Assembly: GCF_014217215.1 (NCBI RefSeq)
Contig: NZ_CP056080.1
Coordinates: 1,550,001-1,614,000, forward strand
DNA from: Rothia nasimurium
GTDB taxonomy: Bacteria; Actinomycetota; Actinomycetes; Actinomycetales; Micrococcaceae
DNA length: 64,000 nt
Reading direction: 5' to 3'
Below are positions 33,502 to 59,948 of the stretch, piece by piece. The notes under the pieces were generated by a model. It did not search any database, was not told the DNA's origin, and saw only the letters and a list, made by a program, of their open reading frames with translations. How positions within the stretch are numbered: the stretch's first letter is position 1; the number at the start of each line of letters is the position of its first letter. The translations under genes were made by a program, and so were the position numbers.

Positions 33502-33518
33502 GCCGCAGGTTTCCCATC

Positions 33519-33560
33519 AAGAAGGGGCCCGCTCAACAGATGTTGAGCGGGCCCCTTCTT
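33519..33560. terminator. strong bidirectional terminator
   Basis: Perfect inverted repeat with arms of 20 bases (33519-33538 and 33541-33560) around a two-base centre, containing GGGGCCCGCTCAACA and its complement, and ending in CTTCTT. It is shared by the DUF4191 gene and the convergent VTT-like gene. Confidence 0.9.
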
Positions 33561-33575
33561 CATGCGTACAGGCTT

Positions 33576-42177: not shown

Positions 42178-43062
42178 ATGCTCAACGAAGAAACAGCACC
42201 CTACGGGTCCTCAACCCCCACCCCCGTCAACCCCCCTCAGGAAGGTGAGGCAAGCGTCCTCGCCGTCAAAAAGGTGCGCACCGTGCACCTGCAACAGGCC
42301 AAGGACGCCGGTGAAAAGTTCGCCATGCTCACCAGCTACGACGCCCTGACCGCCACCATCTTCGACCGGGCCGGTATCGAACTGCTACTCATTGGCGACT
42401 CTGCAGGCAACAATGTGCTGGGGCACGAATCAACCCTCACCATTACCGTTGACGAGATGATTCCCCTGGTCAAAGCTGTTTCTACCGCAGCCAAGCGAGC
42501 TATGGTCGTCGCTGACCTGCCCTTTGGCTCCTACGAGCAGTCCCCCGCCCAGGCCGTAGCAACCGCCGTGCGCTTCATGAAGGAAGGCGGAGCGCACGCG
42601 GTCAAGATGGAAGCCACCGCCCACCACGTAGACCACGTGCGCGCCATGGTTGCAGCGGGCATACCCGTGATGGCTCACATCGGCTTCACACCCCAGTCTG
42701 AACACGCCCTCGGCGGCTACCGGGTGCAGGGCCGCGACGGCGGTCAGGCACTCAAAGACACAGCCCTGGCCCTCGAAGAAGCCGGCACCTTCTGCCTGCT
42801 CATGGAAATGACCCGCTCCGATGTTGCCGCCGACATCGACGCCTCAGTGCGCATCCCCATCATCGGTATCGGGGCTGGCGCGGACGTCAGTGGGCAGGTG
42901 CTCGTCTGGCAGGACGCCTTCGGCCTGCGGCAGGGCAAGATGGCTCGCTTCGTCAAGCAGTACGCCAACCTCTACGACGCTCTGCTCGAAGGAGCAGCTG
43001 CCTACCGGGCAGACGTGCGCTCAGGCGCCTACCCGGCAGAAGAGCACCGATTCGACAGTTAA
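42178..43062 (+). CDS. panB: 3-methyl-2-oxobutanoate hydroxymethyltransferase
   Basis: First committed step of pantothenate synthesis, adding a hydroxymethyl group from methylene-THF to ketoisovalerate. 294 aa with a roughly 30-residue Pro-rich N-terminal extension before the TIM barrel. Motifs FAMLTSYDALTATIFDRAGI, IGDSAGNNVLGH, PFGSYEQSP, KMEA, GHIGFTPQ-type segment AHIGFTPQSEHALGGYRVQGR, and IIGIGAGADVSGQVLVWQD. Stand-alone, divergent from glnA2 (position matches panB Rv2225). Confidence 0.96.
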   Translation: MLNEETAPYGSSTPTPVNPPQEGEASVLAVKKVRTVHLQQAKDAGEKFAMLTSYDALTATIFDRAGIELLLIGDSAGNNVLGHESTLTITVDEMIPLVKAVSTAAKRAMVVADLPFGSYEQSPAQAVATAVRFMKEGGAHAVKMEATAHHVDHVRAMVAAGIPVMAHIGFTPQSEHALGGYRVQGRDGGQALKDTALALEEAGTFCLLMEMTRSDVAADIDASVRIPIIGIGAGADVSGQVLVWQDAFGLRQGKMARFVKQYANLYDALLEGAAAYRADVRSGAYPAEEHRFDS

Positions 43063-43070
43063 AAATTCTG

Positions 43071-43331
43071 CGTTGCCAAAAGTTAGGGAGGTAGCTAACC
43101 CGGGGCTCGCGCTCGCTACCGACCCTCTCACGGGTTCGCAAGCTGGCTCGCAAGCTCGCCAGATTCGCACCGAGATTTATTTTCCTCGCGCGCTCGGAAT
43201 CTCGGTGCTCATCACCGACGATTCACGCCCCGCCTTACGGCGGATTCCGTTCGCTCGTATGTGCTGACGCACCCGCTCACTCCATCGAGCCAGCAGCTTC
43301 GCTGCGAGCCCGGGTCAGCTTTCTCAACGCT
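43071..43331. repeat. intergenic palindromic repeat, copy A (long form)
   Basis: Non-coding, about 260 bases. Imperfect terminal inverted repeats lie around 43093-43110 (AGCTAACCCGGGGCTCGC) and 43303-43320. An inner perfect 11-bp inverted repeat, GCACCGAGATT ... AATCTCGGTGC, lies around 43167-43209, with a small CCGCC/GGCGG hairpin at about 43231. The 26-base core at 43104-43129 recurs with few changes at 57154-57179 and, inverted, at 61373-61398. The other end (GAGCCAGCAGCTTCGCTG, 43286-43303) recurs inverted in copy C at 61312-61329. No open frame of interest. Confidence 0.75.
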
Positions 43332-43348
43332 AGTGAAAAATTCCTTCC

Positions 43349-43549
43349 TTACCAGGTGTCCTTGCCCTCGTCCCATTCTTCGTTGCGCTTCTTCGCCTTC
43401 TCCATGGCCTGCTCTGCTTCTTCGCGGGTACTGAAGGGGCCCCAGAGCTCGGTGATTTTGGACTGCTGGCCCTCTTCGACCTGGCCAGTGCTCAGGTTAT
43501 ACCAGTACTGGGTGTCGTGGGGGCCGGGGGTGTAGTCGTTAAGTGACAT
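43349..43549 (-). CDS. small SPOR-like protein
   Basis: 66 aa from ATG 43549 with AGAAGG upstream. Sequence contains QYWYNLSTGQVEEGQQSKITELWGPFSTREEAEQAMEKAKKRNEEWDE, the pattern of a short SPOR-type protein common in actinobacteria beside map or panB. No signal peptide, so it would be cytosolic, unlike true septal SPOR proteins. Function unknown. Confidence 0.78.
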   Translation of the reverse strand: MSLNDYTPGPHDTQYWYNLSTGQVEEGQQSKITELWGPFSTREEAEQAMEKAKKRNEEWDEGKDTW

Positions 43550-43672
43550 TGTGCTGCCTTCTCTCTTATAGAATGTTGCACGCACCACTTTACGCCCGGT
43601 TAGGCAAAAGATACAGCTTTTGGCAACGCTCCTAGACGGGCCAGCCGGTGTGCAGCGGATAAGCTAGAAGGC

Positions 43673-44578
43673 ATGTCGACATCATCTAACAGCCACAACC
43701 TCCCCGCTGAGCCGGGTAAAGCCCCCGTGGGCAACCTAACGCCCGGCGTCGTAGCCCCCATGCGCCCGGTACCAGCGCACATCGTCCGCCCCGAATACGT
43801 GGGCAAGCCCGAAGCCAACGAGGGTCAGGGTTCAAACTTCTACACCCCCGAAGAAGTAGAAAAGGTGCGGGCGGCCGGCAAAATTGCCGCTGGTGCCATC
43901 GTTGAAGCTGAAAAGATTGCTGTTCCCGGCACCACCACCAACGACATCGACGTCTTGGTGCACGAATACATCTGCGACCACGGGGCCTACCCCTCAACCG
44001 TTGACTACCGCGGCTTCACCAAGAGCGTGTGCACCTCGCTGAATGAGGTCATCTGCCACGGTATCCCCGACTCCACTGTGCTTGAAGACGGCGATATTCT
44101 CAACCTCGACGTGACCGCCTACCTGCACGATATGCACGGTGACACCAACCGCACCCTGCTCGTTGGGGATGTGGACGAAGAGTCCCGTCTGCTGGTTGAG
44201 CGCACCGAAGAGGCCCTGAACCGCGCCATGAAGGCGGTACGCCCCGGCCGTGAAATCAACGTCATCGGGCGCGTCATCGAAAAGTACGCCGCCCGCTTTG
44301 GTTACGGCGTGGTGCGTGACTTTACCGGTCACGGTGTGGGCCGTGAATTCCACTCCGGCCTGATTATCCCCCACTACGATGCGGCCCCTGCCTACAACAC
44401 CGTCATCGAAGACGGCATGATTTTCACCATTGAACCCATGCTCACCCTGGGCACCATCGAATGGGATATGTGGGAGGACGACTGGACCGTCGTCACCCGC
44501 GATCGCAAGCGTACCGCCCAGTTTGAACACACCATGGTTGTCACCGCCGACGGCGTGGACATCCTTACCCTGCCCTAA
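43673..44578 (+). CDS. map: methionine aminopeptidase
   Basis: Removes initiator methionine from nascent proteins. 301 aa: an N-terminal extension of about 45 residues with the actinobacterial [18 protein letters not shown] motif, then the pita-bread domain with metal ligands in [35 protein letters not shown] and the final QFEHTMVV. It is 26 bases upstream of ppgK; probable operon. Confidence 0.95.
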
Positions 44579-44604
44579 ACACCATCACTCTCAAAGGAGC
44601 GCTC

Positions 44605-45450
44605 ATGACTGACGCAGTCACCCCCGAGGTCCCGGCACCTACCGCAGCTGACCTGGTTATCGGTATCGATATCGGAGGCACCGGCATGAAGGGCGGTATC
44701 GTTGATATCCGCACCGGCCAGCTGGTGGGCGAGCGCTTCCGCATCCCCACCCCACAGCCTGCCACCCCCGAGGCCTGCGCATCTGTGGTTCGTGAAATCG
44801 TTGATGAGCTGCAGGGCCGTGAGCTTGCTCCCCTGCCCGATGCGGCTATCGGTATCGACTTCCCCGCTATCGTGAAGAACGGTGTTACTCTATCTGCTGC
44901 GAATGTGCACGAGTCCTGGATTGGTGCTGACCTTGAGGGCATCATGAGCGAGGCCCTGGGCGGACGTACCGTCTACGCCCTGAACGACGCGGACGCTGCC
45001 GGCCTGGCTGAGGCTACCTACGGCCAGGGTAAGGACAAGGACGGCCTGATTGCCGTGATTACCCTGGGCACCGGTATCGGTTCAGCCCTCATTATCAACG
45101 GCCAGCTGATTCCGAACACCGAGCTGGGTCACCTTGAGATTGACGGCCACAACGCCGAATCTCGTGCATCAGCCCGTGCCCGTGAAATTCACGAGCTGTC
45201 CTGGAAGAAGTACGGTAAGCGTCTGCAGCGCTACTTCTCCCACGTGGAGTTCCTCTTCTCCCCCGACCTGTTCATCATCGGTGGTGGCATCTCGAAGAAC
45301 CCCGAGAAGTTTATGCCCTATTTTGAGGATGAGATCCGCACCCCCATGGTCATGGCCCAGCTGCGGAACAACGCTGGCATTGTGGGTGCTGCCCTGTGGG
45401 CTGCTGGCCATCCCAGCGAACACGAGCGCCGCGCCGCCGCCCAGGGCTAG
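44605..45450 (+). CDS. ppgK: polyphosphate glucokinase
   Basis: ROK-fold kinase phosphorylating glucose with polyphosphate (and often ATP) to feed glycolysis and the adjacent glycogen genes. 281 aa. Phosphate motif [32 protein letters not shown], and [27 protein letters not shown]. The ROK zinc-site cysteines are absent, as usual for PpgK. Ribosome site AAAGGAG. Convergent with glgX. Confidence 0.92.
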
Positions 45451-45472
45451 GCCCTACTAGCTCCCCATGATA

Positions 45473-45530
45473 AGGACGCCGCCCGCGCACCTTTCGTGCC
45501 GTAAGGCAGAAGGTGGGTGGGCGGCGTCCT
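45473..45530. terminator. bidirectional terminator between ppgK and glgX
   Basis: Outer perfect 12-bp stem AGGACGCCGCCC (45473-45484) / GGGCGGCGTCCT (45519-45530), inner CACCTT/AAGGTG and TGCC/GGCA pairs with a GTAA tetraloop. A long stacked hairpin serving convergent genes. Confidence 0.85.
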
Positions 45531-45540
45531 CGCATATCCG

Positions 45541-47466
45541 CTATACCTGTGCTGAAAACACCTTGACCGTCTGAGCGCCCAGGGGGTGCTCAATCTCAGG
45601 GTCTGACGAGAGCTCAAATGCCCACTCAAGGCCCTGAGGGTGCTCAGGCAGTACAAGGTCGCGCTGGTCCCCTACGTTTACAACGACCAGCAGGTAGCCT
45701 AAGTCCTCATCTCCCAGCATCATCTGGAAGCCATCGAACCCTTCGCTGTGCCAGTCGGCTCCCTGGACAGGGCTGCCGTCAGTATGCCACCAGGTTACTC
45801 GGTCATCGTGTATAAAGGTGTTTTGCCGGAGCTGGACGAAGCGGCGACGCAGTTCGGTCAGGGCGGCAACGTAGGCGGTCAGGTCAGTATCTGCCTGCTG
45901 CCAGTCCAACCAGGTGATCTCGTTATCTTGGCAGTAGGCATTGTTGTTACCCAGCTGGCTGTTGCCAAGTTCGTCGCCCGCCAGTAGCATCGGCACGCCC
46001 TGGGCAAGCAGGAGCGTTGCCAGCAGAGCTCTGACGCGGCGGTCTCGGCGGCCGAGAAGAACGGGGTCATCGGTAGGGCCTTCGACGCCCAGGTTGTCAC
46101 TGTGGTTATCGTTGTGCCCGTCCCGGTTATCTTCCCCGTTAGCCTCGTTGTGCTTATGGGCGTAGCTCACAAGGTCTTGCAGGGTAAAGCCGTCGTGAGC
46201 TGTGAGGAAGTTGATGGAGGCCGTAGCCGGACGGCCGTTATGGTCGAACCGGCCAGCGGTGCCCAAGAGGGCAGAAGCCAACAGCCCCATCGTGTCGGTG
46301 TCTTTGCGCCAAGCCCGGCGCACCCCATCGCGGAAGGAGTCGTTCCATTCCCGCCAGGGGTGGGGGAAGTGGCCCAGCTGGTAGCCACCGGGGCCGATAT
46401 CCCAGGGCTCAGCAATCATCTTGAGAGAACGGAGCACGGGATCCTGGCTAACGGCCTGGAAGAAAGCCGCCTGCGCACTAAAGCCGGTCTCGGTTCTGCC
46501 CAGGGTGGTGGCCAGGTCAAAACGGAACCCGTCCACACCGTAGCGGGTGGCGAAATGACGGAGGGAGTCAAGCACCAGACGCAGGACGTGAGGGTTACGG
46601 ACGGCTAGGGTGTTCCCGGTGCCGGTGTCGTTGGTGTAGCCGCCGTCGGTGTTGCGCAGGTAATAGCCTGCGTCGTTGAGACCCCTCATCGAAAGAATCG
46701 GCCCTTCGTCCCCGCCTTCGCCGCTGTGGTTGAAGACCACATCGAGGATTACCTCAATACCGTGTTCGTGCAGGGTGTGCACTGCCTCTCGAAATTCGAT
46801 ATCGGCTCGTTCACCGGCGCTGAGATTCCCTTCTTCCCGGTGGGAAGCGTAGCGGGGTTCAAGAGCTGAGAAACCGATGGGCTGGTAGCCCCAGTAGTTC
46901 GTGAGGTCTCGCTGCACCAGGTGCTGGTCGTCGATAAAGGCCTGCACCGGGAGCAGTTCAAGGGTGGTAATGCCCAGTGTGCGCAGGTGCTGGATGAGAG
47001 CAGGCTCTGCGAGAGCAGCGTAGCTGCCGCGCAGGTCGGGGGCGATATCGGGGTGCAGCTGAGTGAGCCCCTTGACGTGGGCCTCGTAGATAACGGTCTC
47101 GTCCCAGGGTACGGATGGTCGGTTGGACGCCGGGTCCGGGCCCTGGGGGTTATCGTCAAGAACGATTCCCTTAGGTACGACCGGGGCACTATCGCCCGGC
47201 GTATCTGCACTCATCAGGGGATCCCAGCGCAGCGGGGCCTCTAAGAGGCGGGCACTGGGGTAGATCAATAGTTTTTCTTCAGCAAAAGCAGGCGAATCGC
47301 CGGTAGCTCGGAAACCATAGCGGTCTCCCGGGTGTACACCGGCGATATCGCCTACCCAGTATTCGCCATCTTTACTGGTGAGCTCATGGCGGGTTTCGTG
47401 ATTCTGGTTATCGAAAAGACAGAGCCAGACCCGGTGAGCTCCGGGTGCCCATACTTCAATTCTCAT
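45541..47466 (-). CDS. glgX: glycogen debranching enzyme GlgX
   Basis: Hydrolyses alpha-1,6 branches trimmed by the phosphorylase. 641 aa. N-terminal CBM48 (MRIEVWAPGAHRVWLCLF), GH13 barrel with YEAHVKGLT, DVVFNHSGEG, the nucleophile region GVDGFRFDLATTLGR, acid MIAEPWDIGPGGY and FLTAHDGFTLQDLVSY. ATG at 47466 overlaps the glgA stop (ATGA). Last gene of the glg operon. Confidence 0.95.
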   Translation of the reverse strand: MRIEVWAPGAHRVWLCLFDNQNHETRHELTSKDGEYWVGDIAGVHPGDRYGFRATGDSPAFAEEKLLIYPSARLLEAPLRWDPLMSADTPGDSAPVVPKGIVLDDNPQGPDPASNRPSVPWDETVIYEAHVKGLTQLHPDIAPDLRGSYAALAEPALIQHLRTLGITTLELLPVQAFIDDQHLVQRDLTNYWGYQPIGFSALEPRYASHREEGNLSAGERADIEFREAVHTLHEHGIEVILDVVFNHSGEGGDEGPILSMRGLNDAGYYLRNTDGGYTNDTGTGNTLAVRNPHVLRLVLDSLRHFATRYGVDGFRFDLATTLGRTETGFSAQAAFFQAVSQDPVLRSLKMIAEPWDIGPGGYQLGHFPHPWREWNDSFRDGVRRAWRKDTDTMGLLASALLGTAGRFDHNGRPATASINFLTAHDGFTLQDLVSYAHKHNEANGEDNRDGHNDNHSDNLGVEGPTDDPVLLGRRDRRVRALLATLLLAQGVPMLLAGDELGNSQLGNNNAYCQDNEITWLDWQQADTDLTAYVAALTELRRRFVQLRQNTFIHDDRVTWWHTDGSPVQGADWHSEGFDGFQMMLGDEDLGYLLVVVNVGDQRDLVLPEHPQGLEWAFELSSDPEIEHPLGAQTVKVFSAQV

Positions 47467-48929
47467 TCAATGAGAGTATCAAACATCCTTGCGTACTCGG
47501 CTGCTGATTTTTCCCAGCTGACCGTGGTGCTCATCGCTGTATGACGTAGCTTAAGCCAGGCTTCGGTATCAGCATAAAGGTCGATGGCACGGCCTAGAGC
47601 GAAGCTCAGGGCACCTACATCGATGACCCCTCCCAGACGGGCATCACCGAAGGTAAAACCGGTGGCGGTGCCGTTTTCTAGGTTCTCGGGGGTTGCGTCG
47701 GTGACGGTGTCCCGCAAGCCACCCGTAGCGGCCACCAGCGGAACTGCGCCGTAGCGCATACCGTACATCTGGGTGAGACCGCTAGGCTCAAAGCGGGAGG
47801 GCACCAGCACCACATCGCCGCCGGCGTACATACGGTGGCTCAGCCCCTCGTCGTACCCTAGACGCAGCCCAACGGCTCCCGGGTATCGGGCAGCAAGCTG
47901 GGTGAGCTCGTACTCGTAATGAGCATCGCCGGACCCGAGAATAGCTACTGCTCCTCCCCGATCGAGGAAGCCAGGCAGAGCATCAACCAGCAGGTCTATT
48001 CCCTTCTGGTGGGTCAAGCGGGTTACTACTACCGCCAGAGGCCCCGACGGAGCGTCAAGATCGAATTCATCGAGGAGACGTTGACGGTTAACGTCCTTAT
48101 CAGCAGGGTTTGCCGCCGTGTAGGGTACGATAGCCGGGTCGGTTGCGGGGTCCCACACCTCGGTATCTACCCCGTTGATAATTCCCTCTAGCTCACCTCG
48201 ATCGCGACGTGCTGCCACAACTCCCTCAAGGCCAAATCCGAAGTCGGGTGATGTGAGCTCCTGCGCGTAGCTGGGGCTCACCGTCGTCAGGCGCGACGCG
48301 TGCACCATGCCCGCCTTCAGGGTTGAGAGCAGGCCGTGGTACTCCAGGGAATCCGGGGTGAAATCCCAGGTGGGAAGGCGCAGATAATCCAGCTGATCAG
48401 CCCCTACAACCCCCTGGAAGGCAATGTTATGCACGGTCATCACGGTGGGCACCTGCGCACCGGCATACTTGAGATACGAGGGGGTTAGCCCTGCCTGCCA
48501 GTCGTGGGCATGCACCAGATCGGGCTTCCAACGGTCGCTAGTACCGTACTGGGCAATCTGAGAGGCAACCCACGAAAGAGCAGCGAAGCGGACGTGGTTA
48601 TCCGGGTAATCTCTTCCGTCGGCAGAGTACGGGCCCCCGTCCCTGTTAAAGAGGTGGGGCGCATCGAGCAGAAGCACGTTGAGACCGTCAATAGTCCCAC
48701 GAATAACGGCAGCCGGCCCGCCGAAAAGATCCTCGTCGCGCCAAACTCGGGTGCCGCGTCCTAGCCTCTCTAAGAGACCGGGGTAGGCAGGAAGCAGCAC
48801 CTTACTCTTCCACCCAAAGGGCTCCAGGGCAGCAGGCAGAGCGCCCACCACATCCGCAAGACCCCCCGTTTTAATCAGTGGGGCACATTCCGAGGCAACC
48901 GAAAGAACACGTTTAACACGTCGTGCCAT
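47463..48929 (-). CDS. glgA: glycogen synthase (ADP-glucose, GT5)
   Basis: Adds glucose from ADP-glucose to glycogen. 488 aa; N-terminal ECAPLIKTGGLADVVGALP with the KTGGL nucleotide-binding loop, HDWQAGLTPSYLKY, and the C-terminal RFEPSGLTQMYGMRYGAVPLVAATGGLRDTV signature with the catalytic Glu. Seven bases after glgC and overlapping glgX. Confidence 0.96.
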   Translation of the reverse strand: MARRVKRVLSVASECAPLIKTGGLADVVGALPAALEPFGWKSKVLLPAYPGLLERLGRGTRVWRDEDLFGGPAAVIRGTIDGLNVLLLDAPHLFNRDGGPYSADGRDYPDNHVRFAALSWVASQIAQYGTSDRWKPDLVHAHDWQAGLTPSYLKYAGAQVPTVMTVHNIAFQGVVGADQLDYLRLPTWDFTPDSLEYHGLLSTLKAGMVHASRLTTVSPSYAQELTSPDFGFGLEGVVAARRDRGELEGIINGVDTEVWDPATDPAIVPYTAANPADKDVNRQRLLDEFDLDAPSGPLAVVVTRLTHQKGIDLLVDALPGFLDRGGAVAILGSGDAHYEYELTQLAARYPGAVGLRLGYDEGLSHRMYAGGDVVLVPSRFEPSGLTQMYGMRYGAVPLVAATGGLRDTVTDATPENLENGTATGFTFGDARLGGVIDVGALSFALGRAIDLYADTEAWLKLRHTAMSTTVSWEKSAAEYARMFDTLIE

Positions 48930-48936
48930 GTCTCTT

Positions 48937-50235
48937 CTACTTTCTTAGAGCTTCTTCACGCTGGTTCAGCATTTTTTGGGTAATCAGAGTTACCCCGCCC
49001 GGTGAAACGGTAAACCACTTCGCATCTTCTTCGGGGTTCTCGCCCACAACCAGGTCCTCAGGAATCGTAACATCACTATCAACCACGCACTTGGTCAGAT
49101 GAGCGTTACGGCCGATATCGACGTGGGGCAGAATTACAGATTCAGTGACAGAAGCAAAAGAGTGAATACGGGCGCCGGTAAAGACCAGGGACTTCTCCAC
49201 GCTTGCTCCCGAAATCACGCAGTCACCCGAGATGAGTGATTGCACCGCGGTACCGCGTCTGCCTCTCTCATTGTGAATGAACTTGGCGGGAGGGGTAATT
49301 TCAGCGTAGGTCCAAATCGGCCAGTTTCGGTCGTAGAAGTCAAGCGGCGGCTCAAAGTCAGTAAGGTCGATATTTGCCTGCCAGAAAGAGTCGATGGTGC
49401 CCACGTCTCGCCAGTAGGCGCGCTTTTCTAGGCCGCTGGTGATGCAGGAATCGCAGAAGCGGTGGGCAAAGGCCTTACCGTTCTCGACAATCTGGGGGAT
49501 GATATCGTGCCCAAAGTCGTGGGATGAGGTTTCGCTAGCGGCGTCCTCAATCAGCTTCTCACGCAAGAAAGCCCAGTCAAAGATGTAGATGCCCATTGAA
49601 ACCAGCGACTCATCGGGATTCTCGGGAGTTGAGGGAGGGTCGGCAGGTTTCTCAAGGAAGTCAACGATCTGGCTGTTTTCATCAACCGCCATAACGCCAA
49701 AAGCACTGGCTTCTTCACGGGGCACGGTCAGGCAGGCGATGGTGACATCAGCATTGGTTCGAACGTGCTGCTCAAGCATGATCGAGTAGTCCATCTTGTA
49801 GATATGGTCACCGGCCAGCACCACGATGTATTCCACATCGTAGTCATCAACGATGTCGATGTTCTGGTAGATAGCGTCAGCGGTACCCAGGTACCACTGG
49901 CTCTCTGAGACTCGCTGGCTAGCAGGCAGAATATCGAGATATTCGTTGCGCTCTGCTCTAAAGAAGCTCCAGCCACGCTGCATATGGCGGATCAGCGAGT
50001 GTGCCTTGTACTGGGTTGCAACCGCCATTTTGCGGATGCCCGAGTTGTAGGCGTTCGAGAGCGGGAAGTCGATGATACGGGCTTTACCGCCGAAGTGAAC
50101 TGCGGGTTTAGACCGGCGGTCGGTGAGTTCCTCTAGTCGGGAGCCTCTGCCACCGGCTAGAACGAAGGCCATAGCCTGGCTGGCTAGGCGGTGCGGGGGT
50201 AGTGCCGTGCCCTGTGCGGTATCAGGCTGACTCAT
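48937..50235 (-). CDS. glgC: glucose-1-phosphate adenylyltransferase
   Basis: Makes ADP-glucose, the committed step of glycogen synthesis. 432 aa. [36 protein letters not shown] at the N-terminus, [13 protein letters not shown], a C-terminal left-handed beta-helix. Its first 14 bases overlap the end of glgB. Confidence 0.96.
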
Positions 50236-52369
50236 GGGTGGTGTCCTCTACAAAATAGATAACTGAAAGGGGAGGAAGTTTCAGGAGCGCAGATTGTGCT
50301 TCGGTACCCATGGGGACGGGTTCTGTTTCGATAGCACCTGCGTGCCCGCGGTCGCCGCCGTGGTAATGAGCGGAGTCTGTGTTGAGCGCTTCAAGCCAGC
50401 GCCCTGGCAGGGGGAAGGGAACTCGGTAGCCGTCGCGTTCTACCGGGGTTAGGTTCAGGACTACCACTACGTGGGGGTCGCCGTCCTCTCCCCTGCGAAG
50501 CCATGCGTAGACCTGCTCGTCAACTGCGTCGACGAGCAGCCACTGGAAGCCACGCCCGTCGCAGTCCCGCCGGTGCAGGGCGGGCTGGGAGCGGTAGAGG
50601 GAGTTGAGATCTCGAACCAGGTTCAGGACGCCCGCGTGCCCGGGGTCATCGAGCACGCCCCAGTCCAGCTCCCCCTGGTAGGCCCATTCGGAGGGCTGGC
50701 CAAATTCTTGGCCCATGAAGAGGAGCTTTTTACCGGGGTAGGCCCACATGTAGGCCAAGAAGGCTTTGAGATTACCCAGTTTTTCAGCGTGGCTACCGGG
50801 CATACGCCCGTAGAGGGAACCTTTACCGTGAACGACCTCATCGTGGCTAATGGGCAGCATGAAACGTTCGCTGAAGATATAGGTGAGCCCGAAGGTCAGC
50901 AGGTCGGAGTGATACTTACGGTAGACCGGGTCTAGACCGAAATATTTGAGTGAGTCGTTCATCCAGCCCAGGCTCCACTTGTAGTCAAAGCCCAGCCCGT
51001 TGTGTTCGGTACTGCGGGTAACCCCGGGGAAGGTCGTTGATTCTTCAGCGATCATGACGGCCCCGTCGCAGTGACGGTTGACGGCATCATTGGTGGTTTT
51101 CAGGAAGTCGATGGCCTCGTAGTTCTCTACGCCGCCGTCCTTATTCGGTACCCACTCGCCGTCCTTACGGGAGTAGTTGCGGTGAATCATCGATGCTACG
51201 GCGTCCACGCGCAGCCCGTCGAGGTGATATTCCTGCAGCCAGTACAGGGCATTAGACCGCAGATGGCCAGCCACTTCCGGTCGGCCGTAGTTATAAATCA
51301 GGGTGTTCCAGTCGGGGTGGTACCCCTCTTGAGGGTTCTGGTGTTCGTACAGGGCGGTACCGTCGAATCGAGCCAGGCCGTGGGCGTCCGCCGGGAAATG
51401 CCCGGGAACCCAGTCGGCGATGACGCCGATGCCGCGCTGGTGGGCGGCGTCCACAAAGGATTGGAAATCGCGGGGCAGGCCGTACCGCACCGTGGGGGCG
51501 TACATCCCCACAGGCTGGTAGCCCCAGGACCCGTCGAAGGGGTGCTCGGTAATCGGCAGAACCTCAATGTGGGTAAACCCTAGATCATCAACATAGTCGA
51601 TGAGCTCACTCCAGCCCTCAGCCCGCCAGGAGCCGAGGTGAACCTCGTAAACGCTCACGGGGGCGTCCGACGCACCGGCCTGCTCCCGGGTAGCCAACCA
51701 CTGAGCGTCCTGCCAGGTGTGCGCGTCGATATCGCGCACAACCGACGCCGTAGCGGGCGGAAGCTCGGCCCCGAACCCTACGGGGTCAGCTTTGAGGGGA
51801 AGGACGGTGCCATTCGCATCGACGATCTCGTACTTGTAGACTGTTCCTTCCTCAAGCCCGGGGATAAAAATTTCCCAGATGCCCGTTGAGCCGCGGGACC
51901 GCATGGGGTGGGCGGTGCCGTTCCAGTCATTGAAAGAACCTACCACCGATACCCGGAAGGCGTTCGGTGCCCAGACCGCAAAGTGCACACCGGGGACCTT
52001 CTCGTGCTCCATCAGGTGGGCTCCTAAGGCGCGCCACAGCTGCTCGTGGCGGCCTTCAGCCAGCAGGTACTCGTCCATATCGCCCAGGACGGGGCCGAAA
52101 CGGTAGGGGTCTTCCCACTCGATCTGCTGGCCGCTGGGCCACTCGATACGCAGCCGGTAGTAGGGAACAGACTCCCCCTCGAAAACCGGTAGGTCGTCAA
52201 CGACACGAAGCAACTCGCGCTGATCGGTGTCGTTGACAGCCCAGATACGCTGGGCACCGGGGACGAGGGCGACTACCAGGCTTCCATCTTCACTGGGGCC
52301 AAGAGCCCGAAAAGGATCCCGGTGCTTCCCCGCAGCTAGTGTGCGGGCTTCTGTTTCTGTGATACTCAT
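50222..52369 (-). CDS. glgB: 1,4-alpha-glucan branching enzyme
   Basis: Introduces alpha-1,6 branches. 715 aa with two N-terminal beta-sandwich domains (N1 about 1-110, CBM48 about 115-210) and GH13 catalytic barrel: [19 protein letters not shown], nucleophile in [13 protein letters not shown], acid in [13 protein letters not shown], and [14 protein letters not shown]. Located 36 bases after glgP and overlapping glgC. Confidence 0.96.
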
Positions 52370-52405
52370 ACGATTCTCTTGCCTCCAGTGAAGATCGGGT
52401 GTCAG

Positions 52406-54811
52406 CTACAGGGCTGAGTCGATGCCCCACACTTCGGTCATGTATTCACGCACTGAACGGTCAGAGCTGAAGTAACCCATACGGGCGATGTTCAGAACTG
52501 CCATGCGCTGCCAGCGTTCGGTGTCTCGGTAGGCTTCTTCGACCTCCTGCTGGGCACGGTCATAGTCGTCAAAGTCAGAGGCAACCAGGAACCAGTCGCC
52601 GTTCCACATGTTGTCGACGATATGGCCGAAACGGTAGGGCTCATCGGGGCTAAAGGTACCCTCAGCTACCGCCTGCAGGATGTCGCGCAGAGCCTGGCTC
52701 ACTTCGATAGCGGCCCGTGAGTGGCCGGGCTGGGCACGACGCTGGGCAACTTCCTCGGTGGTCAGGCCAAAGAGGAAGAAGTTTTCTGCGCCCACATGCT
52801 CACGAATCTCAACGTTCGCGCCATCGAGAGTACCGATGGTGAGGGCACCGTTGAGGGCAAACTTCATGTTGCCGGTACCGGATGCCTCCATACCTGCAGT
52901 CGAAATCTGCTCCGATAGGTCGGAGGCAGGAATCAGACGCTCCGCCATCGAAACGTTGTAGTTGGGAGGGAAGACGATGCGCAGCAGGTGGTTGGTCTCA
53001 GGGTCATTGTTGACGACCTCAGCCACATCGTTGATGAGCTTAATGATGTCCTTGGCGGTGTGGTAGCTGGGAGCTGCCTTACCACCAAAGATTTTGACGC
53101 GGGGTACCCAACCGGCATTGGGGTCACGCTTGATGCGCTGGTAGTGGGCAATAGTCCACATGATGTTCAGCAGCTGGCGCTTGTACTCGTGCATGCGCTT
53201 GACCTGCGAATCAAAAAGGGAGTCCACCGGCAGCTCAATGCCGTGTTCTTCCTGCATCCAGTCCACAAAGCGCTGTTTGGCTGCCTTCTTGCTTTCACCA
53301 AAGGCCTTGAGGAAGGCAGGATCATCGGCGTAGGGTTCCAGCTCCTTCAGGCGCTCAAGGTCGGTCTCCCAGCCCTCACCGATGGTCTCGGTGATGAGCT
53401 GTGCCAGGGCAGGGTTAGCCAGTTTGAGCCAGCGACGAGGGGTGATGCCGTTCGTGATGTTGACGATGCGATCAGGGTGCAGGGCATCGTGCACGGGGAA
53501 CAGCTCGGTACGCACCAGATCGGTGTGCAGGGCTGATACGCCGTTGACGCGGTGGCTGGTGGTAAAGGCCAGGTCACCCATATTGACCTGGTCGCCTGAA
53601 ATCAGGCGGGCAGGGTGGGGTGAGCCTGCCTGAAGCTCCACGAACTTCTGGTCAAGACGTTCGATAATTTGCAGGTGGCGGGGCAGCACATGGCGCATGA
53701 GCCCTACGGTCCAGCGCTCCAGCGCTTCGGGAAGCAGGGTGTGGTTGGTGTAGCCGAGTACCCGGGTAGCCAGGTCAGCGGCACGGTCAAAGTCGAAGCC
53801 GTGCTCATCGACCAGAATACGGATGAGCTCCGGACCAGCAATTGCCGGATGGGTATCGTTCATCTGGATAGCAACGTGGCGGTCAAGGTTCTCGAGGGAG
53901 TCATGACCCACCAGGTGGCGGCGAACGATATCTTGAACGGACGCTGAAGTCAGGAAGTATTCCTGAGATAGGCGCAGCTGCTTACCGCCGTCGGTGGTGT
54001 CGTTGGGGTAGAGCACGCGGCTGAGACTGCGGGCTAGAGCTTCGGGCTCAGCAGCGGCGGTGAAGTCACCGGCGTTGAAGCGACCGAGGTCAAAGAGATC
54101 TGCGTTGGGAGTTGCTGCCCACAGACGCAGGGTGTTGGCCCAGGTGGCTCCGTAGCCTACCACGGGGGTGTCAAAGGCCTGGGCCTGTACGTGAGTACCG
54201 GGGCTCCAGCGCAGCACACCGTTTTCTTCGTAAATCTCGCCGCCAAAGCCTACTCCGTAGACAGATTCGGGGCGGTCAAAGTCCCAGGGGTTACCGTGGG
54301 CAAGCCAGTTCTCGGGGTTTTCCTGCTGACGGCCATTCTCAAATGACTGCTCAAAGAGGCCGTGCTCATACCGCAGGCCGTAGCCGTAGGCGGGGCAACC
54401 CACCGTAGCCATGGACTCAAGGTAGCAGGCAGCAAGGCGGCCCAAGCCGCCGTTGCCGAGCGCGGCGTCCGGCTCTTCATCAGCAACCGCGTTGAAGTCG
54501 ATATCGAATTCAGCCAGAGCCTCAACGGCAATGTCGCGCACGCCGAGGTTGATAGCCAAATCCTCCATGAGCCTGCCAATGAGGAACTCCATGGAAAGGT
54601 AATAAACGCGCTTGCGATCTTCTTCCCACGTGCGGCGTGTGGAGTTGAACCAGGGTTCAACGGCAAGATCTCGCAGGGTATGCGAAAGGGCAATCCGCCA
54701 GTCGTAGGCGGTGGCATGCTTCGGGTCCTTACCAGCGGTAAACCGTAGGTGCTGCAAGAGCGAGGAGCGGAAGCTTGCTACTGATGGTTCGGGGCGATTG
54801 TGTTCTGCCAT
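52406..54811 (-). CDS. glgP: glycogen/maltodextrin phosphorylase
   Basis: Phosphorolyses glycogen to glucose-1-phosphate. 801 aa from ATG 54811 (preceded by GGGGTG; an ATG three codons earlier is possible). YYLSMEFLIGRLMEDLAINLG, GNGGLGRLAACYLESMAT, and the pyridoxal-phosphate site EASGTGNMKFALNGALTIGT with its Lys. First gene of glgP-glgB-glgC-glgA-glgX, so breakdown and synthesis enzymes are produced together. Confidence 0.95.
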   Translation of the reverse strand: MAEHNRPEPSVASFRSSLLQHLRFTAGKDPKHATAYDWRIALSHTLRDLAVEPWFNSTRRTWEEDRKRVYYLSMEFLIGRLMEDLAINLGVRDIAVEALAEFDIDFNAVADEEPDAALGNGGLGRLAACYLESMATVGCPAYGYGLRYEHGLFEQSFENGRQQENPENWLAHGNPWDFDRPESVYGVGFGGEIYEENGVLRWSPGTHVQAQAFDTPVVGYGATWANTLRLWAATPNADLFDLGRFNAGDFTAAAEPEALARSLSRVLYPNDTTDGGKQLRLSQEYFLTSASVQDIVRRHLVGHDSLENLDRHVAIQMNDTHPAIAGPELIRILVDEHGFDFDRAADLATRVLGYTNHTLLPEALERWTVGLMRHVLPRHLQIIERLDQKFVELQAGSPHPARLISGDQVNMGDLAFTTSHRVNGVSALHTDLVRTELFPVHDALHPDRIVNITNGITPRRWLKLANPALAQLITETIGEGWETDLERLKELEPYADDPAFLKAFGESKKAAKQRFVDWMQEEHGIELPVDSLFDSQVKRMHEYKRQLLNIMWTIAHYQRIKRDPNAGWVPRVKIFGGKAAPSYHTAKDIIKLINDVAEVVNNDPETNHLLRIVFPPNYNVSMAERLIPASDLSEQISTAGMEASGTGNMKFALNGALTIGTLDGANVEIREHVGAENFFLFGLTTEEVAQRRAQPGHSRAAIEVSQALRDILQAVAEGTFSPDEPYRFGHIVDNMWNGDWFLVASDFDDYDRAQQEVEEAYRDTERWQRMAVLNIARMGYFSSDRSVREYMTEVWGIDSAL

Positions 54812-55027
54812 ACACCCCATATTAGTGTTCAGTTTTTAACAACTGTGGGGTACACAACACGAAACGCCGATAATTTTAACAACCATCTCTAGCTATGAGA
54901 CACATCTACATTCAGAGTCATACACCGTAGAGATTTTTAACTATTTACGCTAGACAGACGGTGGTTTTTCGGCGCAAGCGGTCTGGAAATTTCAGACCTC
55001 CGCCTTCCCCTGTGGAGCCCCTCCTAC

Positions 55028-55504
55028 CTACAAGAGGGTGGGCTGCTCCCCCTCGTCCGCCCCCGCCTCGCGCAGCGCTGCGATAGCCCGCTCAAAGTCA
55101 TCGAGCGACTCAAAAGCCTGATAGACGCTGGCAAAACGCAGGTAGGCAACGGTATCCAGCTTCGATAGGGGCTCAAGAATAGACAGCCCTACCTCATGGG
55201 CGTCGATCTCAGCAATACCCTTCGCACGAATCGCCTCTTCGACTTCCTGCGCTAGCTTAGCCAGGTCGTCCTCCCCCACGGGGCGCCCTTGGCATGCCTT
55301 ACGCACGCCAGAGACAATCTTGGCCCGGTCAAAGGGTTCGGTCACGCCGCTTCTCTTGATGACCGAAACAGCGGTAGTTTCGACGGTGGTGAACCGTTTT
55401 CCGCAGTTGCTGCACTGGCGGCGGCGGCGAATTGCGGAATTGTCATCGGTGGTTCGCGAGTCAACTACCTTTGAGGTGGAATTACGGCAGAAGGGGCAAT
55501 TCAT
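55028..55504 (-). CDS. nrdR: transcriptional repressor NrdR
   Basis: ATP/dATP-sensing repressor of ribonucleotide reductase genes. 158 aa. Zinc ribbon CPFC ... CSNC (residues 3-34), then the ATP-cone ([24 protein letters not shown]). Ribosome site AGGAGG. Downstream of hisD by 21 bases on the same strand. No ribonucleotide reductase gene is in the window. Confidence 0.96.
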
Positions 55505-55525
55505 GTGGTTCCTCCTAGCGTGGTT

Positions 55526-56908
55526 CTAGCTGTTGTTAGCGGCGGCTGAGCCGGTACGCGCGGTGATGGCCTCACCGTGGGCGGGAAGGTCTTCGTCGTG
55601 GGCAACCGCGACAATGGCATCACCAATCTCAGCCAGGGCGCTCTGACTGTAGTTGATCAGCTGCACAGCCTTCATAAAGACGGTGGTGTTGAGCCCCGAT
55701 GCGTAGGCAGCTGAACCGCCGGTGGGCAGGACGTGGTTGGACCCTGCCGCGTAATCGCCCAGGGGCACCGGCGAATAGGGGCCGATGAAGATCGCACCGG
55801 CGTTGCGCACCCGACCGGCCACCTCTTCTGCCTTCTCGGTATGGATTTCAAGGTGCTCTGCAGCGTAGGCGTCGGCTACCGCGATTGAAGCTTCGAGGCT
55901 GTCGGTGAGCACTACGCCGGACTGGGGGCCGGTCAGGGCAGTGGCCACGCGCTCGCTGTGCTTGGTCGCAGCGGCTCGTTGATTGATGGCGTCCTGCACG
56001 GCGGCGGCGAGGGTAGGGCTGTGAGTGATGAGGACGGACCCGGCGTTGGGGTCGTGTTCGGCCTGGGAAATCAGGTCAGCGGCAACGTAGTCGGGGTTAG
56101 CGGTGTCGTCGGCAATGACGGCGATTTCGGTAGTTCCGGCTTCGCCATCCACCCCCACGACGCCCTGCAGGGATCGCTTAGCCATGGCGACAAAGATGTT
56201 GCCGGGGCCGGTGATGGTATCGACAGGTTCAAGTACTTCGCCGGCGTCGTTCAGCCCGTAGGCCATAGCGCCCAGAGCACCGGCGCCGCCGATGGCCCAG
56301 ACTTCGGTGATACCCAGCAGTCCGGCTGCACCCAGGATGGTGGGGTGGGGCAGGCCGTCGAATTCTTTCTGGGGCGGGGTGCAGAGCACGATGGAGCCGA
56401 CGCCTGCTGCCTGGGCGGGTACGGTGTTCATGATGACCGATGAGGGGTAGACGGCCAGGCCGCCGGGCACGTACACGCCGGCGCGGCGCACGGGGGTCCA
56501 GCGGTTGGTGAGGACGGCCCCGGGGGCAACTTCGATGGTCTGGTCGGCGGGGCGCTGGGCGGCTGCAAAAGCACGGGTGCGCTCGATGGCGATTTCTAGG
56601 CCCTTGCGGACGCCCGGGTCGAGGTTCTCAACCGCCCGGTCGATAGCACTCTGCGGTACGCGCAGGGCGCCCTGCGCTACTCCATCGAAACGGGCGGAGA
56701 GTTCTCGCAGGTAGTCAGCCCCGCGGTCCTGGACGTTCTCGAGGATTTCGTGCACGGTAGTGAGCGCATTGCCCACGAACTCTGTGGTCTGGCGCGGGAC
56801 GATACGGCGCAGCTCAGCGTAGGAGTGGTTGCTGCCGCGCAGGTCGATGGTGCGCAGGGTGAAGTCTGCAGGTGCAGTGGAGTTCTGGGTGTTGTCTGTT
56901 GTGCTCAC
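55526..56908 (-). CDS. hisD: histidinol dehydrogenase
   Basis: Zn-dependent, NAD-linked last two steps of histidine synthesis. 460 aa. RAGVYVPGG, GPGNIFVAMAKR, ISQAEHDPNAG with zinc ligands, and AAEHLEIH. No other his gene follows; nrdR does. A frame remnant lies just upstream, followed by the repeat copy B. Confidence 0.95.
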   Translation of the reverse strand: MSTTDNTQNSTAPADFTLRTIDLRGSNHSYAELRRIVPRQTTEFVGNALTTVHEILENVQDRGADYLRELSARFDGVAQGALRVPQSAIDRAVENLDPGVRKGLEIAIERTRAFAAAQRPADQTIEVAPGAVLTNRWTPVRRAGVYVPGGLAVYPSSVIMNTVPAQAAGVGSIVLCTPPQKEFDGLPHPTILGAAGLLGITEVWAIGGAGALGAMAYGLNDAGEVLEPVDTITGPGNIFVAMAKRSLQGVVGVDGEAGTTEIAVIADDTANPDYVAADLISQAEHDPNAGSVLITHSPTLAAAVQDAINQRAAATKHSERVATALTGPQSGVVLTDSLEASIAVADAYAAEHLEIHTEKAEEVAGRVRNAGAIFIGPYSPVPLGDYAAGSNHVLPTGGSAAYASGLNTTVFMKAVQLINYSQSALAEIGDAIVAVAHDEDLPAHGEAITARTGSAAANNS

Positions 56909-56944
56909 TCTTTGATTTTAACGCGGTCGTCAAGCCGCTGCGGG

Positions 56945-57121
56945 TTAGGCCTGTGGGTTTTCCGGCTGGTGAGATTCTGCCGCCTTGAGTTTTTCTGCTG
57001 CGGCCTGCCAGCCGGGCGGACGCTTGCGGGCGGGCAGGGACTCGACCACGGTGAGGTAGGACTCGGCGATGAGCTCGGCTAGCAGCTCGCCGGTCACATC
57101 TGGGTGGGGCACGAGGTTCAA
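56945..57121 (-). pseudogene. 3' remnant of an MmcQ/YjbR-like gene
   Basis: A reading frame of about 58 codons ending in TAA at 56945-56947. The segment GELLAELIAESYLTVVESLPARKR resembles the C-terminal helix and tail of MmcQ/YjbR (DUF419) proteins. The frame meets a stop four codons upstream of its first possible start (TTG 57121), and the rest of the domain is missing; repeat B begins about 25 bases further on. Family call is from memory of the pattern and is moderate. Confidence 0.45.
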
Positions 57122-57144
57122 GCTTAGTGGTCACTCTTCTTTAT

Positions 57145-57191
57145 GGTGAAGCAGGCTCACGCTCGCTGCCGACCCTCTCGCCTGGTTCACC
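57145..57191. repeat. intergenic palindromic repeat, copy B (short form)
   Basis: Forty-seven bases bounded by GGTGAAGCAGG and CCTGGTTCACC (inverted with one mismatch). The core 57154-57179 matches copies A and C of the same family (24 of 26 positions with A, all 26 with the complement of C). It lies directly upstream of the truncated gene at 56945. Confidence 0.75.
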
Positions 57192-57228
57192 TACCCTTAA
57201 TGAATAATCCTCACTATTTCCCAGGTGA

Positions 57229-57516
57229 TTAACTCCGGGGCGGGAGCTTGGTCAGGTCGCGGCCAGGGTCATCGCGGAGCATCCGCAGTCGTCGTGTCAT
57301 TGAGTCTTGGTCTGCAGTTTTCCGCTCAAATAGCTGTTGGATCGCAAGGTTCGTCGAGACCACCCACTGGGTGAGTGTGATGTAGAGCATGGGCCCACGC
57401 CGCACACCACGCTTGAAAGACTCCATGCCCGTAACGTGGGGGGATTTCATAATCGAAAAACGCTGCTCAGTAAGAGCACGGGCTGTCTCATAGTAGGGTG
57501 GGGCTGGTTTGGGTGT
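57229..57516 (-). pseudogene. C-terminal fragment of a DDE transposase
   Basis: Frame without its own N-terminus: about 95 codons, from just after the ATPase stop to TAG/TGA at 57229. It contains ETARALTEQRFSIMKSP followed by a Phe-x2-Gly-x-Arg-Arg-Gly stretch and a hydrophobic helix (YITLTQWVVSTNLAIQQLF). Glu-x2-Phe-x3-Lys followed by an Arg-Gly turn is the ending of many IS4/IS1182-type DDE transposases, with the last catalytic Glu. Exact IS family not determined. Confidence 0.5.
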
Positions 57517-57520
57517 GTTA

Positions 57521-59398
57521 TTAGGCGCTCAGCGCCTCCTTTGTGGCATCGGTGGCGGATACCTCTTCCGCGTTGCCCTCCTTGCGGGTGGGTCGCAGCA
57601 GGAGCATGGCTATGGCGATGACGATCAGGACGCTAGCTTCGTGGACGAGCATGCCAATCGACATGGTCACTCCGCCGAGCAGCACACCGACCAGCAGGAT
57701 CGCGACAGTCAGCAAAGCGATGGCGATATTGATCCTCATCGTGTTGACCGTGCGCTTGGCCAGGCCCAGAGCGTAGGGCAGACGCTGCAGTTTATCGGCC
57801 ATCAGCGCAATATCGGCGGTCTCGATCGCCGCAGGTGAGCCAGCGGCCCCCATGGCCACACCGATGTCGGCCTGGGCAAGTGCCGGGGTGTCGTTGACGC
57901 CGTCGCCGATCATGGCCACGGTGTGGCCCTGAGCCTGGAGTTCACGCACAATCTCGAGTTTGTCCTCGGGCATCAGTTCCGCGCGGATCTCGTCGACCCC
58001 GAGTTCCGAGCCCACGTTGCGGGCCACCCGCTCCGCGTCACCGGTGGCCATGATCACGCGCACGCCCTTGTCGTGCAACGACTGGATGGCGGCCGGGGCG
58101 TCATCACGGATGGTGTCCGCGACGGCGACGATACCGATAGCGCTACCGTTGACACCGACGTGCATAGCGGTCTTACCCTGGTCATTGAGTTCGAGGATAC
58201 GGGCGATATCCGGGGTGTGATCGAGCAGGTCGGCGGAACCGACGGCGACGGTATGGTGGTCGACCTTCGCGATGATGCCCTTGCCAGTAACCGGTGTAGC
58301 TTTCTCGACCATCTCGATGGTCAGGCCCTTGTTCTCCGCACCGCGGATGATCGCCTGGGCCAGGGGGTGCTCGGAGGCGGTTTCGGCACGCGCAGCCAGG
58401 ACCAGCACCTCATCTGCCGAGTAGGAGTCATCCAGAACATCGACGTTGGTCAGCTCGGGGCGCCCGTTAGTCAAGGTGCCGGTCTTGTCGGCAACCACAG
58501 TATCGACCTTCGCGGAGGTCTCCAGGTATTCGCCCCCCTTGATGAGTACCCCGTCCTTGGCGGAGCGTCCGATACCGGCGACAATCGAGACCGGGATGGA
58601 AATGACCAGCGCCCCGGGGCAGGCGATGACCAACAGGGTCAGGGCTAGTTCCACGTTCCAGGTGAGCAGCCCGACCACCAGCGCGGCGACCATGACACCA
58701 GGGGTGTAGTACTTCGAGAATTTCTCCAAAAACGTCTGGGTTTTCGCCTTGTCGTCCTGAGCATCCTCGACGCGGTGGATGATCTTGGCCAGGGTGGAGT
58801 CCGACCCGATACCAATGGTTTCAATCCGCAGCACCCCGGAGCGCAGCCAGGTGCCGGCGAAGACCTCCGAGGCTTGGGTCTTCTCGGCGGGCAGGGATTC
58901 ACCGGTGATGGTGGCCTCATCCACCCCGCCGTGACCGGAGATGACCCGCCCGTCGACGGGAATCTGCTCACCGTTTTTCACGAGCACAACATCACCGGGG
59001 ACCAGCTCCCAGATCTCGACGGTCTCGGTGACACCATCCTCGCCCAGCTTGGTGGCGGTTTCCGGGGCGGTGTCCACCAGATCCGACAGTGCCTTGCGGG
59101 TGCGGTTCATCGTTGCCCTCTCCAGAGCCTTGCCCAGGGCGAACAGGAAAGTGACAGCGGCTGATTCCCAGTAGTTGTTGATGAACAGCGCACCGATAGC
59201 GGCAACGATGACCAGCAGGTCAATCGAAATCATCTTAATCCGCAGGGCCTGGAACGCGGAGACGGCGATCTGCCAACCGGCGACCACCGCGGCGGCGATC
59301 ATGAATCCGTCCGAGAGCCACCCGACGGGAGTGAGCCAGGACAGGATAATCAACAGTCCTGAGACGGCGGTGACGCCCCAGGTTTTCCAGGTCTTCAT
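57521..59398 (-). CDS. heavy-metal P1B-type ATPase with CPG motif
   Basis: Metal efflux or delivery pump. 625 aa, without the N-terminal metal-binding domain most relatives have. Membrane pairs at about 5-75, 230-285 and 555-605. TGES in the actuator domain (TGESLPAEKT), metal-site helix VIACPGALVISIP with Cys260-Pro-Gly in place of the usual Cys-Pro-Cys, phosphorylation site D304 (DKTGTLTNG), HP motif SEHPLAQAI, and MIGDGVNDTPALA. The last membrane helix has HEASVLIVI where zinc/cadmium pumps have HEG. Metal specificity cannot be read safely. Ribosome site AAAGGA. It has its own promoter with an FNR-type box; the separate CopZ-like protein may replace the missing domain. Confidence 0.9.
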   Translation of the reverse strand: MKTWKTWGVTAVSGLLIILSWLTPVGWLSDGFMIAAAVVAGWQIAVSAFQALRIKMISIDLLVIVAAIGALFINNYWESAAVTFLFALGKALERATMNRTRKALSDLVDTAPETATKLGEDGVTETVEIWELVPGDVVLVKNGEQIPVDGRVISGHGGVDEATITGESLPAEKTQASEVFAGTWLRSGVLRIETIGIGSDSTLAKIIHRVEDAQDDKAKTQTFLEKFSKYYTPGVMVAALVVGLLTWNVELALTLLVIACPGALVISIPVSIVAGIGRSAKDGVLIKGGEYLETSAKVDTVVADKTGTLTNGRPELTNVDVLDDSYSADEVLVLAARAETASEHPLAQAIIRGAENKGLTIEMVEKATPVTGKGIIAKVDHHTVAVGSADLLDHTPDIARILELNDQGKTAMHVGVNGSAIGIVAVADTIRDDAPAAIQSLHDKGVRVIMATGDAERVARNVGSELGVDEIRAELMPEDKLEIVRELQAQGHTVAMIGDGVNDTPALAQADIGVAMGAAGSPAAIETADIALMADKLQRLPYALGLAKRTVNTMRINIAIALLTVAILLVGVLLGGVTMSIGMLVHEASVLIVIAIAMLLLRPTRKEGNAEEVSATDATKEALSA

Positions 59399-59447
59399 GA
59401 TGGGTATCCTTTACGTGTGAGAAGGTTGTGTTCTTGTGACACTTCTT

Positions 59448-59489
59448 AAGTTAGAAACAATCCGGGGAAGGTTCCTTGATGCGGATCAA
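59448..59489 (-). promoter_or_regulatory. FNR-type box and -10 element of the P-type ATPase gene
   Basis: TTGATGCGGATCAA (59476-59489) is a perfect TTGAT-N4-ATCAA palindrome. On the minus strand a -10-like TAACTT lies at 59453-59448, which puts the expected start point near 59441, exactly 41.5 bases from the box centre: the geometry of FNR-activated class II promoters. The ATPase start codon is at 59398. Confidence 0.72.
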
Positions 59490-59550
59490 TCAATCCTGAA
59501 AAGCCTCTGAACTGGCCGAAAGCATCTGTGATCTTTGGGGGAAGTCATTG

Positions 59551-59586
59551 AAAAGCCCGCCGGCACGGTGCTGGTGCAGGCGGGCT
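59551..59586 (-). terminator. intrinsic terminator after the CopZ-like gene
   Basis: Stem AGCCCGCC (59554-59561) / GGCGGGCT (59579-59586) and, on the minus strand, a TTTT run directly after it. It ends the chaperone transcript before the ATPase promoter, so the two genes are separate units. Confidence 0.8.
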
Positions 59587-59605
59587 GAGGGGGGGTGTGA
59601 GCAGT

Positions 59606-59842
59606 CTAGATTGCAGAGGGCTTGGCGGTGTAGCCGACCTCGGCTACCGCTGTGACCAGGTCGCGGACGGAGACCTTCTGTGAGTCGTGGGTGACCAGGA
59701 TGCGGCCGGAGGAGAACTTCACCTCGGCGGACTTCACGCCGTCCAGGCCGTTCAGCTTGTTTTCGATCTTGGCGATACAGCTCGGGCAGGTGAACTCATC
59801 GGAGCGCAACGTGGTGTTCTTAAGCGTGATCGGAGTGGTCAT
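59606..59842 (-). CDS. CopZ-like HMA-domain metallochaperone
   Basis: 78 aa, a single heavy-metal-associated domain. Metal site C19-P-S-C22 (FTCPSCIAKIENKL), then the GVKSAEVKFSSGRILVTHD strands and GYTAK ending. Would carry a soft metal ion, probably Cu(I), to the neighbouring ATPase. AAAGGA 10 bases before the ATG. Own promoter and terminator, on the same strand as the ATPase. Confidence 0.88.
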   Translation of the reverse strand: MTTPITLKNTTLRSDEFTCPSCIAKIENKLNGLDGVKSAEVKFSSGRILVTHDSQKVSVRDLVTAVAEVGYTAKPSAI

Positions 59843-59937: not shown

Positions 59938-59948
59938 AGAACGCCAAA

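Follow-up and report, generated by a model that had tools for sequence, protein, structure and literature searches.

What kind of DNA fills the gap between panB and the small gene that converges on it, and why is it longer here than at comparable places? An earlier note on this part of the Rothia nasimurium genome had marked positions 43071-43331 as copy A of a hairpin repeat, of which copies B and C lie further along, and had proposed that variation in size around conserved ends would tell how the family spreads or decays. We analysed the whole 64,000-nucleotide stretch (the window, G000:C1:1550001-1614000, G000 being the genome that carries it) together with further copies in this genome and in its relatives. 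Copy A is flanked by panB (42178-43062), which matches Pantoate_transf at 332.5 bits, and by an open reading frame of 79 amino acids, convergent with panB, whose match to SPOR is weak (17.5 bits, cut-off 21). The three copies and the parts of copy A are as follows.

43093-43320, plus strand: copy A, element proper, 228 bp, class AB (both optional modules), terminal repeats absent
43093-43111, plus strand: left outer arm of copy A, AGCTAACCCGGGGCTCGCG, pairing with 43304-43320
43112-43129, plus strand: left core of the family in copy A, CTCGCTACCGACCCTCTC
43140-43216, plus strand: optional module A of copy A; class II copies carry its segment 43173-43202 as the reverse complement
43230-43286, plus strand: optional module B of copy A, occupying the place of a short AGCC-type joint in copy C
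43287-43303, plus strand: right core of copy A, GAGCCAGCAGCTTCGCT
43304-43320, plus strand: right outer arm of copy A, pairing with 43093-43111
57145-57212, plus strand: copy B, internally shortened, with one IS5-type terminal repeat left (right end, 57196-57212)
61295-61409, minus strand: copy C, short class S, with palindromic outer arms, terminal repeats absent

The resemblance among these copies is not a matter of chance short matches. Local alignment of copy A with copy C scored 56 (shuffle mean 19.2, maximum 32) and with copy B 43 (shuffle mean 17.7, maximum 30), and neither score was reached by any of 500 dinucleotide shuffles of copy A. The core and opposite end that A and C had been said to have in common correspond to 43112-43129 and 43287-43303, and the common inner sequence is there as well: copy A carries GATTCACGCC at 43220-43229, the reverse complement of the GGCGTGAATC reported before. 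Conservation of the ends, however, is confined to these inner parts, and the outermost arms, AGCTAACCCGGG in A and AAGGTGATGCAGG in C, are unrelated. Likewise, the marked interval contains a real element, but the paired portion, 43093-43320, is slightly smaller. Copy A is indeed of one family with the others and longer than they are, and it has additional hairpin-forming sequence inside; what had been described as inserted inverted repeats takes the form of two separate optional modules, one at 43140-43216 and the other at 43230-43286. Folded as single-stranded DNA, copy A is more stable than its shuffles (z -3.4; 1 of 200 as good). The window holds other repeats near these copies and away from them: a 13-bp inverted repeat (43070-43082, GCGTTGCCAAAAG; 43617-43629, CTTTTGGCAACGC) encloses copy A and the SPOR-like gene, a 39-base direct repeat (61442-61480 and 61567-61605, 90% identical) lies directly beside copy C, and 33515-33564 is an inverted repeat, not of the hairpin family, whose 24-bp arms match almost perfectly around a 2-base centre.

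The family is a dispersed non-coding palindromic repeat. In this Rothia genome, the core pattern at up to 2 mismatches occurs at 24 places, its reversed control at 1; the right-end pattern at up to 3 mismatches occurs at 34, its reversed control at 0. The total is 36 places, 12 of them right-end places without a left-pattern match. Consensus matches were found in 20 of 35 genomes of the genus (E 0.001; at most 24 candidates scored per genome). Among 149 genomes sampled across the bacterial family, with 5 candidates scored per genome, 5 matched and all are Rothia, and the genomes of 31 other genera in that sample gave 0 matches. Loci in relatives were drawn with one exact 23-base right-end pattern, which misses copies with altered right ends; among the matches listed there were at least 104, from eight assemblies and all (104 of 104) Rothia. 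The copies studied number at least 138 after deduplication, again among the matches listed, and are a sample rather than a census. Phages gave no match to the repeat, and plasmids one partial match (84.7%), on a Rothia plasmid; half a repeat lies at NZ_CP125945.1 2356-2427, on the 3.4-kb plasmid of Rothia sp. SD9660Na. A known RNA family was rejected as a candidate, since a search of window positions 42800-62000 against Rfam (E up to 1) gave no match.

The search for additional length classes, suggested in the earlier note, found more of them in this genome and across the genus. Measured from left arm to right core, the 138 listed copies form groups near 62, 112-120, 127-129, 141-148 and 175-185 bases, with a few others. 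We classed copies by their modules: S has neither, SB has module B, AS has module A, AB has both, as in copy A, and II has an A-type module that is reverse-complemented. The counts were S 74, SB 11, AS 5, II 21 and AB 11, with 16 of the 138 staying unclassed and L085 and L040 assigned by hand; the left arm was not located in 7 of the 138, of which L003 and L007 were later placed by hand. Segment 43173-43202 is present in forward orientation in 10 of 11 AB and 5 of 5 AS copies, is reversed in 21 of 21 II copies, and occurs in 0 of 74 S and 0 of 11 SB copies among those listed. The interior is a fixed core with two optional hairpin modules, and a copy may carry either one, both or neither. Copy A is longer because both are present.

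The edges of the repeat point to how it moves. Full-length copies are bounded by 13-bp terminal repeats, GAGGCTTATTCAT. With a terminal repeat scored as present at up to 4 mismatches of 13, 46 of the 131 listed copies with a located left arm have both, 25 have one and 60 have neither; A and C are among the 60, and copy B retains one. A 3-bp target duplication flanks 9 of 35 distinct full copies, when 1.7 would be expected (0 of 2000 permutations as high), and 26 of the 35 are without it; 2-base and 4-base duplications around full copies showed no excess. At the AGGT/ACCT ends of 14 copies lacking terminal repeats, 3-bp duplications numbered 2 (0.19 expected; 30 of 2000 permutations as high), which we do not count as evidence, 2-bp duplications numbered 1 (0.9 expected), and those of 4 and 5 bp numbered 0.

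When the terminal ends were searched in 12 genomes, end pairs about 0.9 kb apart proved to be insertion sequences encoding a transposase of 257-258 amino acids. The transposases match DDE_Tnp_4 (85.8 bits for the 257-aa protein, and 76.2 bits) and HTH_Tnp_4 (43.9 and 42.6 bits), above cut-off; the NCBIfam IS5 model is the best fit, yet falls below its own cut-off. The genome that carries copy A contains an autonomous IS5-like element of about 0.9 kb bounded by the same ends as the repeat. The first 20 bases are identical between full repeats and the IS copy L162 (GAGGCTTATTCATAAGGGGT), with divergence afterwards, and the IS copies L162, L163, L164 and L170 have 3-bp duplications too. Two IS types are represented at G000:C1:543988-544892, 1953583-1954487 and 546795-547696, with transposases about 71% identical and ends nearly alike. 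Another short element, at L165 399-556 (G000:C1:103298-103455), has IS5-type ends, GAGGCTTATTCAAAAG, a TGT duplication and an unrelated interior, and L079 and L133 are nested shells, in which an inner palindrome with GGCACCC-type arms sits inside IS5-type terminal repeats.

Empty sites were found at two loci. At L018, the element is missing from five aligned relatives. Where G000 has ATT-element-ATT, AAATATTGTG stands in four of them, and in the fifth, L184, this stretch carries point changes. At L126, G004 is without it; a further candidate, L112, was left out for poor alignment. Since L018 holds an AB-class copy and is precisely empty in relatives, copy A's class has itself moved. Of 35 genomes, 18 contain both the repeat and the transposase (E 1e-30), 2 the repeat only (G017, G032), 1 the transposase only (G005) and 14 neither (Fisher p 7e-7, a statistic that ignores shared ancestry). 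G017, despite its many repeat copies, gave no transposase match at that E value, and in G005 and G028 the match is a fragment only. Together, the ends shared with an insertion sequence, the 3-bp duplications and the empty sites make it very probable that we are dealing with a MITE, whose copies are small non-coding transposons that depend for their movement on a transposase of the IS5 family, encoded at another place in this genome. Since copy A is without terminal repeats, the best reading is that it is old, belongs to the module-rich class and has lost its ends. No convincing target duplication was found at the ends of copies A and C. The orthologues of copy A, L130 and L150, are also class AB, with arms 0.89-0.90 identical; L086, in the same gap, is class S and its edges differ.

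Orthologous sites, identified by their flanks, allow the fate of single copies to be followed between strains. Both flanks matched in 72 pairs, and 68 remained after 4 of unknown class were left out: class and orientation are the same in 25, class differs in 19, orientation is inverted in 17, and both differ in 7. The pairs are not independent events, as they represent 29 sites, with a class difference at 15, an inversion at 10 and neither at 8. In 11 of the 26 class-differing pairs (10 sites), always across assemblies, identity between the arms proper to the site is 0.90 or more. For example, L098 and L142 have an unusual arm, GCGCAGGCTCGTGCT, in common, and one is class II, the other S. The interior is flipped inside conserved arms in L028/L129 and L044/L062, and the entire element is flipped between its own terminal repeats in L083, L097 and L155 relative to L143 and L158. 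Other inverted pairs, whose arms are unrelated, look like separate insertions in one gap. The same division between interior and arms appears when S copies at non-orthologous sites are compared, with loops 93% and arms 52% identical (medians of 2666 pairs, arms taken in the better of two orientations), as against 98.6% and 88.6% in 42 orthologous pairs of the same class. Judged by these identities, the interior is common to the whole genome and the arms belong to the site. Given cassette differences at sites with conserved arms, variation in size reflects in-place cassette change and deletion as well as transposition. Decay is visible at sites of copies lacking terminal repeats, where some relatives have truncated forms (L209, L210, L211) or hairpins that have collapsed (L212, L215). 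In the gap of L064_-7596, where L064 has the repeat, L087 has a different palindrome with arms AGGTACCA/TGGTACCT.

The outer arms differ from site to site and yet match each other. In an alignment of 53 of 54 short-class site representatives (L020 left out), covariation is seen in the outer stem and in an inner stem of 5 pairs: of 22 pairs, 20 are altered on both sides, and double-change cells number 135, against 44 in shuffles (0 of 500 as high). Columns 14-16 are unpaired in 27-32 of the 53 sites, and a family pattern of GG and CAGG columns is conserved in most of them. Within orthologous sites the picture is the contrary one, with 41 single-side and 3 double changes in same-orientation pairs of arm identity above 0.7, or 34 and 3 without the doubtful L065/L157, which contributes 7 apparently misregistered single-side changes. 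This count leaves out nine pairs at 0.47 or below, some of them misregistered, as L066/L123, L105/L136 and L017/L147 have arms 0.80-0.97 identical in the arm-identity comparison. Slow compensatory selection is thus unsupported, and we rejected ongoing compensation of the arms. Matching arms particular to each site could possibly have originated by template-switch correction, arm replacement or old insertion.

Several other explanations have to be weighed against these data. A REP-like element, moved as single-stranded hairpin DNA by a Y1 (RAYT) transposase, would likewise be palindromic, numerous and outside genes. Yet Y1_Tnp (PF01797) is found in only 3 of 35 genomes of the genus and not at all in this one, and the copies have instead double-strand-type ends, 3-bp duplications and an IS5 partner; we rejected REP/REPIN with RAYT as highly improbable. 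The variation of arms by site, with complementarity inside each, might also mean that the core inserts into ready-made host hairpins and that the site-specific arms are host DNA. This seems quite improbable: what relatives have as short forms are remnants of the element, either truncated or collapsed, and none is a clean host hairpin (3 aligned of 9 sites without terminal repeats that were queried), and the arms keep to the family's column pattern. Differences between strains at one site could, finally, all be separate insertions into one gap, with no change of cassette in place, and in several orthologous gaps the copies do have arms that are unrelated and edges that differ (for example L074/L076, L016/L115, L038/L096 and L015/L071). 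As a full account we regard this as unlikely, because the 11 pairs described above differ in class within nearly identical arms, and at five of their 10 sites class II stands against another class (L098/L142, L063/L119, L071/L104, L025/L060, L044/L062), where on inspection neither interior is derivable from the other by deletion.

The position of the copies relative to genes bears on whether they are instead retained as functional RNA hairpins, as 3'-end or terminator elements, with a mobile history that is secondary. The 63 callable sites comprise 28 convergent, 34 tandem and 1 divergent gaps, compared with 75, 252 and 77 among 404 background gaps drawn from the same loci, the repeats' own gaps included; convergent gaps are commoner (Fisher p 2.5e-5) and divergent ones rarer (p 9e-5). 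Gene neighbours were called by a simple ORF rule that dropped 30 of 133 copies because they lay close to the edge of a locus or distant from any gene. Most copies stand a short way downstream of a stop codon, at a median of 20.5 nt from that of the adjacent gene. These positions and the strong covariation across sites favour such a role. Nevertheless, within a site no maintenance of pairing is visible, truncated and collapsed remnants persist at orthologous sites, the sense orientation in tandem gaps is favoured by only 23 to 11 (p 0.06), and avoidance of promoters accounts for position equally well, so that retention as RNA hairpins appears rather unlikely. A pattern scan found no U-tract terminator near copy A. 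The gene positions fit removal from promoters and leave room for a 3'-end RNA role, and copy A may have a putative side role as a 3' hairpin of the panB mRNA.

We therefore favour a MITE as the account of this family. The IS5-type transposase of the same genome would move the copies in trans, dispersed copies would recombine ectopically or serve for template switching and so alter the cassette in place, and copies without terminal repeats would be old insertions that have lost them. By inspection, the left side of two exchanged cassettes has only about 14 bases of shared DNA, which is short for ordinary homologous recombination. It could be imagined that the outer arms are fixed slots whose cassettes are swapped and flipped by a dedicated recombination and not by chance homology, with gene-free hairpin slots across the genome refilled from a common pool, though we consider this very doubtful.

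Beyond the earlier note, the analysis adds the terminal repeats, the 3-bp duplications, the IS5-type partner and the outer arms particular to each site. For Rothia, the result is a family of mobile non-coding repeats for which an enzyme partner is probable, together with a record from several species of how interior cassettes are altered and inverted while the arms around them stay fixed. How small bacterial palindromes turn over, which is usually a matter of guesswork from a single genome, can thereby be tested at individual sites. Should the hairpins terminate transcripts or make them more stable, changes of cassette would also make gene ends differ from strain to strain.

Among small repeats of other bacteria, Correia elements have length variants, internal insertions occur in ERIC, and BOX has a modular build. 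We found no description of a Rothia repeat of such a kind in the openly accessible literature searched. In the available portions of the papers cited here, bacterial MITEs are short, non-coding and numerous outside genes, with terminal repeats shared with an insertion sequence and a target duplication, as in Rothia (PMC10969869); the Rothia family differs from that description in its conserved and modular interior, in outer arms that are mostly particular to the site, and in a cassette that varies at orthologous sites. ERIC of enterobacteria is a 127-bp repeat outside genes, for which an action on mRNA stability has been proposed, but its host and ends are other (PMC2229807). BOX and RUP of pneumococcus are small repeats outside genes (PMC3049150), RUP with terminal repeats (PMC2229807); their host is unrelated, and the likeness is one of description, not of sequence. 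The Correia elements of Neisseria are, like the present repeat, inverted repeats with a conserved core (PMC10969869; PMC2649163). They are set apart, by description, by a terminal repeat of 24 bp (PMC2229807), whereas that of Rothia is 13 bp and comes with a 3-bp duplication and an IS5-type partner. A Correia element can undergo inversion, as the same accessible account of these elements reports (PMC10969869), and this is the nearest precedent for the Rothia family.
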